This document shows, piece after piece, positions 23,794 through 29,585 of a stretch of DNA of 64,000 nt. The notes below the pieces were generated by a model, which was not told where the DNA came from, ran no database searches, and was given only the letters and a program-made list of their open reading frames with translations. The translations under genes were made by a program, and so were the position numbers. How positions within the stretch are numbered: position 1 is the stretch's first letter; each line of letters begins with the position of its first letter. The DNA comes from Streptomyces sp. HSG2. GTDB taxonomy: Bacteria > Actinomycetota > Actinomycetes > Streptomycetales > Streptomycetaceae. The stretch spans positions 3,224,001-3,288,000 of the forward strand of contig NZ_CP066801.1 of the NCBI RefSeq assembly GCF_016598575.1. The letters run 5' to 3'.

Positions 23794-25791
23794 ATGTCGG
23801 AGGCGGAGCGGGTGGGTACACCCCGTCAGGACAACAGCGCACGTCTCCTCGCCGGGCGGTACCGGCTGGGAGACGTGCTCGGCCGCGGCGGCATGGGGAC
23901 GGTGTGGCGCGCGGACGACGAGACGCTGGGGCGCACGGTCGCCGTCAAGGAGCTGCGGTTCCCGTCGAACATCGACGAGGAGGAGAAGCGGCGCCTGATC
24001 ACGCGCACCCTGCGGGAGGCCAAGGCCATCGCGCGGATCCGCAACACCAGCGCCGTCACGGTCTACGACGTCGTCGAGGAGGACGACCGACCGTGGATCG
24101 TGATGGAACTCGTGGAGGGCAGGTCCCTCGCCGACGTCATCCGCGAGGACGGCGTACTGGAACCCCGGCGCGCGGCCGAAGTCGGACTCGCCGTGCTGGA
24201 CGTGCTGCGCTCGGCCCACCGCCAGGGCATCCTGCACCGTGACGTCAAACCCTCCAACGTCCTGATCGCCGAGGACGGCAGAGTGGTCCTCACGGACTTC
24301 GGCATCGCCCAGATCGAGGGAGATCCCTCCCTCACCTCGACCGGGATGCTCGTCGGCGCTCCCTCCTACATCTCGCCCGAGCGCGCCCGAGGGCACACCC
24401 CCGGCCCCGCGGCCGACCTGTGGTCTCTCGGCGGCCTGCTGTACGCCGCGGTGGAGGGAAGCCCGCCCTACGACAAGGGCTCGGCCATCGCCACACTCAC
24501 CGCGGTGATGACGGAGCCCCTGGAAGAGCCCCGCAACGCGGGCCCCTTGGCCGAGGTCGTCCACGGGCTGCTCACCAAGGACCCCGCCAAGCGACTCGAC
24601 GACGCGGGCGCCCGTGAGCTGCTCACCGCGGCGCTTGAGGCTCCCCGCCCCGAGGCCGCTCCGCCCGCGTCGGGCCGCGGAGGCAAGAAGAGGACGGCGA
24701 CGACGGAGCGGCCCGGCGCCGAGGGCGAGTCCGGGGAGGCGCGCCCGCGCGGCGCCAAGCGCCCGACGCGCCGGGCGGGGACCGCGAGCGGGCCGGACGC
24801 GGCGCCGACGAAGGCGCCCGCCGTCGACTCGACCCCCGCACCGGACGAGGAGCCCCCCGCGTCCGGTGCCGCCTCGTCCACCGGGGAGCGCGCGGCCGGC
24901 CGGGCGGCGAAGAGCCCGACCGCCGGCCGGGGTTCGTCCTGGCCCGCCATGGCTCCGCCGGATCTTCCGGCGCGCCCCGCCCCGAGGGCCTCGCTCACCG
25001 ACGTCGTGCCACGCCGGACGTTGGTGGTCGCAGGCGCCGTCGTCGTCGCCTTGCTGCTCGCGCTCGCCGCCGTGCTGGCCTTCGTGTGGGCCGGGGACGA
25101 CGAGTCCCGTGCCTCGGAGGGCGGCTCGCCCGCCGGCTCGACCGCCCCGGCGAGCGGTGCCGCCGGGTCCGGCGAGGAGGAGGGATCCGACCGGACCGTG
25201 GCGGATCGCGCGAGCGGCGAGTCCGCGGAGAACGCCGCGGACGCCGGAGTGGACACCGCTCCGGGCGGTGGATCCGCCACCGAGGCGCGGGACGCGGTGG
25301 AGTCGGGGGAGTCCGAGGACGCCGCCGACACCGACGGCTCCGAAGACGAGGAAGCGGCCGACGTGGCCGGGACCCACCAGGGCGACCAGGGCTACACGAT
25401 CGGACTGCCCGAAGGCTGGAGCTACCAGTCCACGGGGACGGCCGGTGATCGCTTCGCCGGGCCCGACGGGCAGAAGCTGCTGGTCGCCTGGACCACCACC
25501 CCGAAGAGCGATCCGGTCGCCGACTGGCAGGCCCAGGAGCGCTACATGCGCCGCGAGGCCTACGAGCGCGTCCACATAGAGAAGGTCGAATACCGGGGGT
25601 GGAACACGGCCGACTGGGAGTTCACCTACGTCGAGGACGGCACCGCCTACCACACCGTCGATCGGGGGTTCGTGGTGAACGACGGGCTCGGATACGCCCT
25701 CATGTACACGGCCAGGTCCGCCGACTGGTCGGACGACACGCGCCGCGAGACCTGGGCGACGTTGACCGGGACGTTCCGGCCGAAGCCCTGA
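23794..25791 (+). CDS. Membrane Ser/Thr protein kinase (PknB-like) with extracellular domain
   Basis: A 665-residue one-pass kinase. The kinase domain covers about residues 20-285, with the Gly loop GRGGMGTVW, Lys in VAVKEL, catalytic HRDVKPSNVLI, DFGIAQ and the APE-equivalent ISPERA. A disordered Ala/Pro/Arg linker follows. The membrane helix (VVVALLLALAAVLAFVW) is near residue 420. A final extracellular domain contains YTIGLPEGWSY and ends LTGTFRPKP. All catalytic residues are present. ATG 23794 follows AGGGGACGC; ATG 23782 is an alternative. First of three tandem kinase genes. Confidence 0.93.
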   Translation: MSEAERVGTPRQDNSARLLAGRYRLGDVLGRGGMGTVWRADDETLGRTVAVKELRFPSNIDEEEKRRLITRTLREAKAIARIRNTSAVTVYDVVEEDDRPWIVMELVEGRSLADVIREDGVLEPRRAAEVGLAVLDVLRSAHRQGILHRDVKPSNVLIAEDGRVVLTDFGIAQIEGDPSLTSTGMLVGAPSYISPERARGHTPGPAADLWSLGGLLYAAVEGSPPYDKGSAIATLTAVMTEPLEEPRNAGPLAEVVHGLLTKDPAKRLDDAGARELLTAALEAPRPEAAPPASGRGGKKRTATTERPGAEGESGEARPRGAKRPTRRAGTASGPDAAPTKAPAVDSTPAPDEEPPASGAASSTGERAAGRAAKSPTAGRGSSWPAMAPPDLPARPAPRASLTDVVPRRTLVVAGAVVVALLLALAAVLAFVWAGDDESRASEGGSPAGSTAPASGAAGSGEEEGSDRTVADRASGESAENAADAGVDTAPGGGSATEARDAVESGESEDAADTDGSEDEEAADVAGTHQGDQGYTIGLPEGWSYQSTGTAGDRFAGPDGQKLLVAWTTTPKSDPVADWQAQERYMRREAYERVHIEKVEYRGWNTADWEFTYVEDGTAYHTVDRGFVVNDGLGYALMYTARSADWSDDTRRETWATLTGTFRPKP

Positions 25792-25893
25792 AGAGGCGCC
25801 CCACGGCACGTATCGTGAGGGCGCGGACCGTACGCCGCCCGAACGAGCCGCGGCGCGCACGGTACCGACCGACCGGCGGCCGGGGGAGGAATC

Positions 25894-28271
25894 GTGGACG
25901 ACTACGCGGGACGGGTCCTCGCCGACCGCTACCGCCTTCCGCTGCCGCCCGTCGACGCCGGCGAACCGGCCGAGACCCGCGCTTTCGACACCTACAGCGG
26001 TCAGGAGGTGCTGGTCCGTCAGGTGCCGCTGCCCGAGGTGGTCGAGGCGGAGGTGCTGGACGCCGACGGCCTCCCCGAGGGTTTCACGGCCCGGGACGGC
26101 ACATCACGAGGCCCGGAGCCGAAACCCGGGGCCGCCCCGGCCGCCGCCGATCCCGTACCGAGGGCGGACCCGCTGGTGCGGCGGGCCGTGGAGGCCGCGC
26201 GGGCGGCGGCGGAACTCCCCGACCACCCGCGCCTCGACCAGGTCTTCGACGTCTTCGCCGAAGGCGGGTCCCTGTGGGTCGTCAGTGAGCTGGTGGCGGC
26301 TCGCCCGCTGGCCGCCGTCCTGGCCGAGCGGTCGTTGACCGCGTACCGGGCGGCCGAGGTGGCCGCCGACGTCCTCACCGCGCTGCGGGTACTGCACGGC
26401 CACGGATGGGTGCACCGGAACGTCACCGCCCGCACCGTGTTGATCTGCGACGACGGGCGGGTGCTGCTCACCGGGTTGGCGGTGGGCGCGGCGGAGGAGG
26501 CCCTGTGCGGCCACGACCCGCTGCCCGAGGCCGACGACACGGCCTTGCCGGACATCGCGGTCGGGCCCGGCGGGACGCCCCTGCCCGGCGCTCCGACCGG
26601 CGGCGGCGCGGGGCGGGGGGCCGCCGACGCCGGTCAGGACGGGTGGGGTGGGGTCGCGCTCCCCGGGCCGGCCGCCGAGGGACGCCGGGCAGCGGCGGCC
26701 GGCAACCGCCCGGGGGCGTCGGGCGCGGTCGCGCGGGCGTTTCCGGCGCTCGACGGGCCGTCGTCCGGCGAGGGCGGGCGGCCCGCGCCGGCGCCATCGC
26801 CGCCTACCGCGCCGGCGCCCGGGCCGCCGCCGCACGGGTCAGGGAGACGCGGGGCGAGGCGCCCGCCCTCCCCGGCCGGGACCCGTACACGGCGGGCGGG
26901 GTCACCGCCCCTCGACGGACGCACGACGCTCCGGCGCCCGGACCGAACGGCGGGGACGCCGGAGTCGCCCGCCCCGCCGCCCCGCGCCCACCCGTCCCCT
27001 CGGAGCCCCCGGGCGCCGCTCCCGGCGGCGCGCGCGGGCCCGCCGGCACCCTGGCCGCCGAACGGGCTCGGCAGGCCCGGATGTCCGTCGTCGGCCCGGT
27101 GACCGAGCGGTGGGCACCGGAACAGGCCGGCCCGGTCCACGGAAACTGGCGGTTGGCGCCCCCGGTGGGTCCCGCGACGGACCTGTGGGCACTCGGGGCG
27201 CTCCTCTTCCGCGCCGTCCAGGGGCACGCCCCCTACCCGGAGGAGTCGACGGCCGAGCTGGTCCAACTGGTCTGCGCCGAGCCGCCGGCCTTCGCCGAGG
27301 AGTGCGGACCGCTGCGTCCCGTCGTGGAGTCGCTGCTGCGCCGGGACCCCACCGAGCGGCTGGGTGCCGAGGAACTGCGCGGCTGGCTGCGCTCACTGGT
27401 GCGGTCCGCGCCCGAACCCGACGCCGGGCTGCACGTCGTGCCCGCCCCGCCCGTCGACACCGGCCGACTGCCCGTCGTACGGCGCCGGGGAGAACTGGTG
27501 CGGCGGCGCCGGGCCGGGCCGCCGGCACGATCGTCGCGGCACGGACGCCGGGAGGGGGAGCGGTCCCCGCACCGGCTCGGTCGCCTCCTGCTCCTGCTCG
27601 TCCTGCTCGGCGTCGCCGGAGCGGTGGCCTACGCGGCGCTCCTCATGCCGCGGGCCGACGCCGGCGCCGCCACCGGGGCGGGTCGGGTGGCGTCCGCCCC
27701 GTCCCCGAACGCCGTCGTGCCCGACGGGCGGACGCCTCCGGCGGGGTCCTCCGTTCCCTCCCACGCGGCGCGGGGCACGGAGACCCGGCCGGCCGGCTCC
27801 GAATCCCCGGTCGACGTCCCCGAGGGATTCACGCTCCGGACCGACCCCGAGGGCTTCCGGGTCGCGGTCGCCGAGGGATGGGACCGCTCTCCGGCGAACG
27901 ACCGCGGACAAGTCGTCTATGCCGGCGGGCGGTTCCGTCTGCTGATCGTGCCCGGCCGGGACGGGACGACCGAGTACGGCACCGATCCGATGGCCTACCA
28001 GCGGGAGCGGGAGCCGGAGTTGCAGCCGTACCGCGACTCCACGTGGGCCACGTCCACGGGGATGAGGACGGTGGAGGTCGGCGGACGTGTGACGGCCGAG
28101 GGCCAGTTCACCTGGACCGGCGCCGACGGCTCCGAGCTGTACGTCCGCAACCTGGCCCTGCTGATCGACGACCGCTACCACATCGTCCAGGTGCTCGGCC
28201 CCGAATCCGAACGGGACGAGGTGACCCGGCTGTTCGAGCGGGCCGCCGCGACCTACCGCCCCGCGGGGTGA
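25894..28271 (+). pseudogene. Ser/Thr pseudokinase gene split by a -1 frameshift
   Basis: Frame 1 from 25894 encodes a kinase-like N-terminus (MDDYAGRVLADRYRL), but HRD-K-N is HRN-T-T (WVHRNVTARTVLI) and DFG is TGL, with no Gly loop: a pseudokinase. The coherent reading then jumps to frame 0, where GAIAAYRAGARAAAARV, VTERWAPEQAGPVH, a membrane helix and an extracellular domain ending ATYRPAG continue to 28271. Third-position composition switches between about 26770 and 26785. The total is 2378 bases, one short of a whole number of codons, consistent with a single-base deletion or a sequencing error. Frame 1 alone would run on to 27102. Confidence 0.78.
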
Positions 28272-28409
28272 CGCCCCGCCCCTCGGGGCGACACCCCCTC
28301 GGACGGGCGACCCGCACCCCACCCGGGACGGTTCGTGACGCCGTCGGTTGTCGGCCACCGCGGGGCGAGTACCCCGGAGCCGTGCCCTCCGGTGGGGCAT
28401 CATGGGCCC

Positions 28410-29585
28410 ATGGTGACCGAGGGGGACGGCGGGCGTGTGATCGCCGGCCGCTACCGGCTCGGCGAGCGGCTCGGCAGCGGCGGCATGGGGGTCGTCTGGC
28501 GTGCCACCGACGCGTTGCTCGGCCGTGAGGTCGCCGTCAAGGCACTGCCCCTGGCCGACCCGTCCGAGCCCCGCACCGCCTCCGGCGCCACGACGGAGGC
28601 CCTGCGGCGGCGCGAGCGCACCCTCCGCGAGGCCCGCGCGGTCGCGCGGCTGAGCCACCCGCACATCATCGTCGTCCACGACGTCGTCGAGGACGAGGGG
28701 CGTGCCTACATCGTCATGGAACTGATCGACGGCGGCTCGCTCGCCGACCGGCTCGTCGAGCGGGGCACGGTCCGGGCCGGCGAGGCCGCGAGGATCGGCC
28801 TCGCCCTGCTCGGCGCCCTGCGCACGGCCCACTCCGCCGGGGTCCTGCACCGGGACGTCAAGCCGTCCAACGTCCTGATCGCCGACGACGGCCGCGTCGT
28901 CCTCACCGACTTCGGCGTCGCCCACGTCGAGGGCGCCACCACGCTCACCGAGACCGGCACCTTCGTCGGCTCGCCCGAGTACACCGCGCCGGAACGGATG
29001 TCCGGGACCGGCACCGGACCGGCGTCCGACCTGTGGTCGCTGGGCGCCCTGCTGTGCACCGCGCTCAGCGGCGAGTCGCCGTTCCGACGGGACTCCCTCG
29101 GCGGAATCGTGCGCGCCGTGGTGGACGAGGCGGTCCAGGCCCCCGCGCAGGCCGCGCCGTTGGCCCCCGTCGTCCGCGGCCTCCTCGAACGCGACCCCGC
29201 GCGGCGGCTGGACGCGGAGGAGGCCGAGGGGATGCTGCGCGCCTTCCTGGCGACCGGCCGCACCCCGCGCCGACCCGGCGACGAGCGGGTGCCGCGGCGG
29301 GCCAGGCGGGGCCTGCTGCTCGCGGTGCTCCTCGCGGCCGCGACGGTCGCGGCCGGCGTCGGCACCGCCATCTTGCTCACGGGCGACCCCGGGGGCGCGG
29401 GAGGAGGCGCGCCCTCGACATCCGTGCCGGACTCCCCCTCGCCGACGCCCGCCGACCCGCCGCCTGTCCCGGCACCGTCCGCCGAGGTGGGTCCGCCCGG
29501 TGTCGCCTCGCCGCCCCAGGGCGGCACCTTCCCGTCCGGCGGTCCGTACCGGGCGGCCACCCCCGACCCCGCCGTGCCGCCCTAG
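28410..29585 (+). CDS. Membrane Ser/Thr protein kinase with short extracellular tail
   Basis: A 391-residue kinase. The Gly loop GSGGMGVVW, VAVKAL, HRDVKPSNVLI, DFGVAH and YTAPERM are all intact, so it should be active. The membrane helix (LLLAVLLAAATVAAGVG) is near residue 300. Only about 65 Pro-rich residues follow, ending AATPDPAVPP at a TAG, with no globular sensor domain, unlike the two upstream kinases. Sequence character changes immediately after the stop, so the C-terminus may have been lost. ATG 28410 or GTG 28413 can serve as start. Confidence 0.88.
   Translation: MVTEGDGGRVIAGRYRLGERLGSGGMGVVWRATDALLGREVAVKALPLADPSEPRTASGATTEALRRRERTLREARAVARLSHPHIIVVHDVVEDEGRAYIVMELIDGGSLADRLVERGTVRAGEAARIGLALLGALRTAHSAGVLHRDVKPSNVLIADDGRVVLTDFGVAHVEGATTLTETGTFVGSPEYTAPERMSGTGTGPASDLWSLGALLCTALSGESPFRRDSLGGIVRAVVDEAVQAPAQAAPLAPVVRGLLERDPARRLDAEEAEGMLRAFLATGRTPRRPGDERVPRRARRGLLLAVLLAAATVAAGVGTAILLTGDPGGAGGGAPSTSVPDSPSPTPADPPPVPAPSAEVGPPGVASPPQGGTFPSGGPYRAATPDPAVPP

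Follow-up and report, generated by a model that had tools for sequence, protein, structure and literature searches.

A one-base deficit in the GC-rich linker of a conserved Streptomyces pseudokinase gene, with a sequence error somewhat favoured over recent loss

Introduction

Is a membrane pseudokinase gene of Streptomyces sp. HSG2 truly broken, or does its sequence simply lack a base? The outcome decides whether the genome record marks the gene as broken. The stretch of DNA we analysed, referred to here as the window, is 64,000 nucleotides long and covers positions 3224001–3288000 of a single contig of 5,282,528 bases (99.74% complete). The gene at 25894–28271 falls one base short of a whole number of codons and is not one continuous ORF; it is covered by two overlapping ORFs at 25894–27102 (frame 1, 402 amino acids) and 26406–28271 (frame 0). 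In Pfam, the frame-1 ORF matches the front part of a kinase domain and the frame-0 ORF, below the cut-off, its back part. The features of the locus are as follows (positions are those of the window):

25894–28271, forward strand: pseudokinase gene, SCO4776-type by gene order, with a one-base deficit (ORFs, orthologues and a codon-usage HMM)
25894–26772, forward strand: N-terminal half in frame 1, with the N-lobe and catalytic-loop remnant; VAIK Lys replaced by Arg, HRD by HRN and DFG by GLA (Pfam and alignment)
26560–27060, forward strand: low-complexity linker of 87% G+C, from the catalytic-loop remnant to the APE motif
26773–26774, forward strand: site of the frame change; homologous codons end in frame 1 just before it and begin in frame 0 just after it (orthologue DNA and HMM)
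26775–28271, forward strand: C-terminal half in frame 0, with the rest of the linker, the C-lobe with its APE motif, the membrane helix and the outside domain
26775–26819, forward strand: RAARAGAIAAYRAGA motif, conserved within the otherwise variable linker (orthologue comparison)
27099–27102, forward strand: GTGA, where the stop of the frame-1 ORF overlaps a frame-0 GTG; a possible, unremarkable restart site
27585–27647, forward strand: likely membrane helix (read by eye from the sequence)
27819–28268, forward strand: outside domain with a predicted PsbP-like fold (AlphaFold2 and Foldseek)
23794–25791, forward strand: active-type Ser/Thr kinase, first gene of the cluster, in the position of pkaH
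28410–29585, forward strand: active-type Ser/Thr kinase, best matching the fourth gene of relatives' clusters, in the position of pkaI

Location of the frame change

As G+C content by codon position was uninformative across most of the linker (about 26540–27100), we turned to a codon-usage HMM and, independently of it, to a comparison with orthologue DNA. The HMM, which makes no use of orthologues, found the sole internal frame change of the gene at 26776. By comparison with orthologue DNA, the final frame-1 homologous stretch (ALD..SSGE) has its last codon at 26770–26772, and frame-0 homology starts with the codon at 26775, the beginning of RAARAGAIAAYRAGA. In relatives, RAARAGAIAAYR is in the same frame as the residues preceding it, which are mostly D-[I/V/P], and the second residue before it is D in 95, Q in four and E in two of 101 other loci (these include duplicates, the distinct contexts numbering 90). 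The sequence-only reading had proposed that coding passes from frame 1 to frame 0 at 26765–26790 and that the joined gene is one base short; the HMM (26776) and the orthologue DNA (26772/26775) agree with the split and show its place to have been right to within a codon, and the deficit is borne out by orthologues which read through in one frame. A chance overlap of two genes is ruled out because the frame-1 and frame-0 halves both align to a single protein in relatives.

Orthologues are almost always a single ORF

We compared the gene with two sets of orthologues. The first consisted of 80 loci, all titled Streptomyces or Kitasatospora, in which 73 genes are one ORF (including L060, scored intact by hand because V replaces A in its N-terminal motif), five are cut by contig ends, and two (L035 and L080) have a break at another place of the linker; the L035 contig begins inside the linker and only the portion behind that point was seen. 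The second set comprised the best-scoring matches listed in a search over 392 genomes (41 unscored), and is not a random sample. Once L119 and L120 were dropped as repeats of L169 and L170, it held 44 distinct regions, in which 40 genes are one ORF, two have breaks at other places (an N-lobe insert in L212 and the linker upstream in L222), one is cut by a contig end (L208) and one has no match to the N half (L225). This last locus, in genome G079, is not at a contig end and has the C half of the pseudokinase; the 2.3 kb fetched upstream gave no match to the N half.

We removed as duplicates six scorable regions of the second set (L193, L194, L197, L207, L214 and L229), whose contigs are equal in length to those of first-set loci. 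The two sets together then gave 111 distinct scorable loci, of which 107 are one ORF and four are broken elsewhere in the gene. No break at the window's site, nor any arrangement of two ORFs there, was found among these 111, and the two separate ORFs that the earlier reading had named as evidence against a frameshift are thus absent from them. We note that the breaks in L035, L080, L212 and L222 lie at four different places of the same gene, all of low complexity by our reading. As a control, we scored the cluster's third kinase in the first set of 80 loci. It was open in 76/76 scorable cases (the other four having no C-end match), and its frequency of breaks is not clearly different from that of the pseudokinase in the same loci (73 open, two broken and five cut by contig ends). 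A search for sister species sharing the junction, with a 23-base pattern allowing up to three mismatches, was weak, with some match in 291 of 392 genomes of the genus, two to three mismatches in the matches listed from other genomes, and wide matching by the reversed control.

A conserved pseudokinase with a predicted outside domain

The HRD-K-N and DFG residues of active eukaryotic-type Ser/Thr kinases are absent from the window gene in our alignment. Each of the 84 distinct orthologue sequences in the alignment has, like the window, HRN in place of HRD and GLA at the DFG position; the VAIK Lys is Arg in 83 of the 84 and Thr in one, and APE is retained in 83 with SPE in the other; it should be noted that these 84 were picked for having the N-terminal and linker motifs both within one ORF. 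The sequences indicate that the gene encodes a conserved pseudokinase in which the replaced residues are themselves conserved. Also, RAARAGAIAAYRAGA at 26775–26819 is strongly conserved in 101 other loci amid a variable linker; lying between the catalytic-loop remnant and APE, it may form a docking helix.

The C-terminal half continues with the likely membrane helix, and after it an outside domain of 150 residues. This domain has no Pfam match, and no PDB sequence match at E-values up to 1. AlphaFold2 modelled it with a mean pLDDT of 90.3, and the top-ranked structures in a Foldseek search with the model were PsbP structures at a TM-score of about 0.7, from which we predict a PsbP-like fold. 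A common origin with the outside domain of the first kinase is unsupported (profile comparison probability of 0.3%). The earlier description of a membrane pseudokinase with a sensor domain which had already lost its HRD and DFG motifs is in keeping with these results, at the level of a predicted fold in the case of the outside domain.

The kinase cluster

The pseudokinase is in position 2 of the cluster in the window and in all four relatives fetched with long flanks, where the order is a kinase, the pseudokinase and three kinases (four in L168), after which come the same two genes as in the window, which we take to be SSDH-like and GMC-oxidoreductase-like. The window cluster (23794–29585) holds three genes only, compared with five or six in the relatives. 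When the third and fifth kinases of relative G147 were searched for in the whole genome, the best matches were confined to the first and last kinases of the window (54–57% identity), and on the basis of this search both appear to have been lost in the window's lineage. MreC, a reported PkaI target, is present in the genome.

The S. coelicolor cluster SCO4775–4779 (pkaH, SCO4776, pkaD, pkaI and pkaJ) is tied to spore-wall synthesis in the available text of PMC4416010, and our pseudokinase matches SCO4776, an assignment made by gene order and that source and not by a direct sequence match. A second SCO4776 copy disturbs sporulation in S. coelicolor, according to the same available text (PMC4416010), and the protein has been detected, according to the extract available from PMC9739823. 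A literature search covering Streptomyces pseudokinases, SCO4775 and SCO4776 found, among the papers listed, none on the lack of catalytic residues in the second 'kinase' of the cluster.

Composition, wear and the background of frame changes

The 200 bp around the site have 87.0% G+C. Of 50133 windows sampled over 1.26 Mb, 0.03% are at least as GC-rich, and the highest value among them is 87.5%. Behind the break, frame 0 is open for 1491 nt onward to the natural end with no further stop. Private changes at near-invariant columns number 6/126 in the N half and 6/194 in the C half, so that the C half is no more worn than the N half. Compared with all aligned sequences, the window has the most private changes in the N half (six, the next having four) and shares third place in the C half, where the highest among the others is 14. 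With no further stops or shifts and no relaxed change behind the break, a long-standing pseudogene is ruled out.

To set the break against a background, we sampled 1137 HMM genes over 1.264 Mb (24% of the genome) and found 24 frame-change events, two of them in the window, leaving out events within 150 bases of the ends of stretches. Most of the 24 are model artefacts, judging from the translations. A filter that required coding on either side of the change let through seven events outside the pseudokinase gene; the pseudokinase gene itself failed it, although the HMM had called its frame change. L237:14819 and L237:15193 (one gene) and L156:18339 lie in what we take to be transposase-like genes with frameshifts, L156:15987 is presumably in the remnant of a GDSL-like hydrolase with a frame change, the first motif being apparently missing, and the events in L151, L154 and L252 look, from their translations, like misread starts or adjacent genes. 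The HMM performs poorly in linkers of low complexity, and its count underestimates the background in such regions.

Cause of the break

We think it somewhat probable that the missing base is a residual sequencing or assembly error, and lean towards this over a very recent null mutation, which is nearly as likely. HSG2 would then have an intact SCO4776-type membrane pseudokinase, one ORF as in nearly all relatives examined, from which the assembly would have dropped one base in the GC-saturated linker. The protein would be whole in the cell, with the pseudokinase inside, a single membrane helix and the PsbP-like domain outside, and would probably serve the adjacent kinases, which control spore-wall synthesis, as a non-catalytic partner. 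An error is supported by the deficit sitting exactly where orthologues read through, by the extreme G+C at the site, and by a frame 0 that is open and a C half that is not additionally worn. The breaks in four other assemblies, in low-complexity stretches and at different places, are what would be expected of an error-prone template. According to the available portion of PMC3711429, which covers older genomes, a single frameshift confirmed by homology is expected to be a sequencing error and not a genuine indel.

Several observations count against an error and are better accommodated by a real, very recent one-base deletion that inactivated the gene in a small-genome lineage which is dismantling its kinase cluster, an explanation we regard as a serious possibility that falls short of probable. 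The product would be a soluble protein of 402 residues ending at 27102, lacking the C-lobe, membrane helix and outside domain. Hardly any other frameshift was seen outside mobile elements in the 1137 sampled genes, which means that this assembly has few residual errors, although the weakness of the HMM in linkers of low complexity tempers this. The same low background in the sampled part speaks for a real event, as do the breaks in 4/111 other loci. Shrinkage of the cluster from five or six genes to three, without the third and fifth kinases and in a genome of only 5.28 Mb, fits real decay, and the window's place at the top of the N-half private changes and its third-place tie in the C half are also counted against an error. 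Extreme G+C may favour real slippage in the cell too. Against a deletion stand the lack of any further stop, a C half without excess changes over the N half, and the G+C extreme itself.

On a further, very improbable reading, real slippage would be concentrated in the GC-saturated linker and would switch this spore-wall pseudokinase off and on in natural Streptomyces populations, as suggested by five genomes (HSG2 and four others) each having their own break in low-complexity stretches when the third kinase is open in 76/76. It is very improbable that a real deletion leaves both halves being made, with restart at GTG 27099 or ATG 27081 producing a separate C-lobe, membrane and sensor protein; the GTGA overlap at 27099–27102 and the in-frame ATG at 27081 would allow this, but such overlaps are common by chance, the first six frame-1 stops past the junction including three GTGA and one ATGA (the GTGA overlap being unremarkable for this reason), and by eye no clear Shine-Dalgarno sequence precedes either start codon, and the C half would begin just ahead of the APE motif. 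The earlier suggestion of programmed -1 frameshifting or transcriptional slippage joining the halves found no support and is the least probable of all, since, for all that homologous coding is kept in both frames at a G-rich site, there is no X XXY YYZ heptamer in frame-1 codons over 26760–26790 (read from the sequence), G runs at the junction reach three bases at most, the one downstream stretch folded (82 nt) is no more stable than its shuffled versions (z -0.12, with 87/200 as good), and the shift is seen in no orthologue examined.

Comparison with known systems

The window gene resembles the GeneTack singleton frameshift genes, described in the available portion of PMC3711429, in having a homology-confirmed frame change at a site in one genome only, and the sole difference is its GC-extreme setting. 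The predicted outside-domain fold is like that of the PsbP-type structures 4rti and 2xb3 (TM-score of about 0.7 to PsbP) and similar to the Mycobacterium tuberculosis structures 5zx9 and 4pws (0.57–0.60; all scores query-normalised), although identity with PsbP and the similar structures is 10–15%.

A further counterpart is SCO4776, the second gene of a five-gene kinase cluster in the available text of PMC4416010 and in the same arrangement as in the window's relatives, from which the window gene differs in being one base short and in a cluster of three genes. That text counts SCO4776 among five Ser/Thr kinases, whereas the window's pseudokinase family is without catalytic residues, and the second 'kinase' of this sporulation-linked cluster lacks them in every orthologue aligned. 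If SCO4776 belongs to the pseudokinase family, the effect of a second copy on sporulation, as described there, may reflect binding and not phosphorylation.
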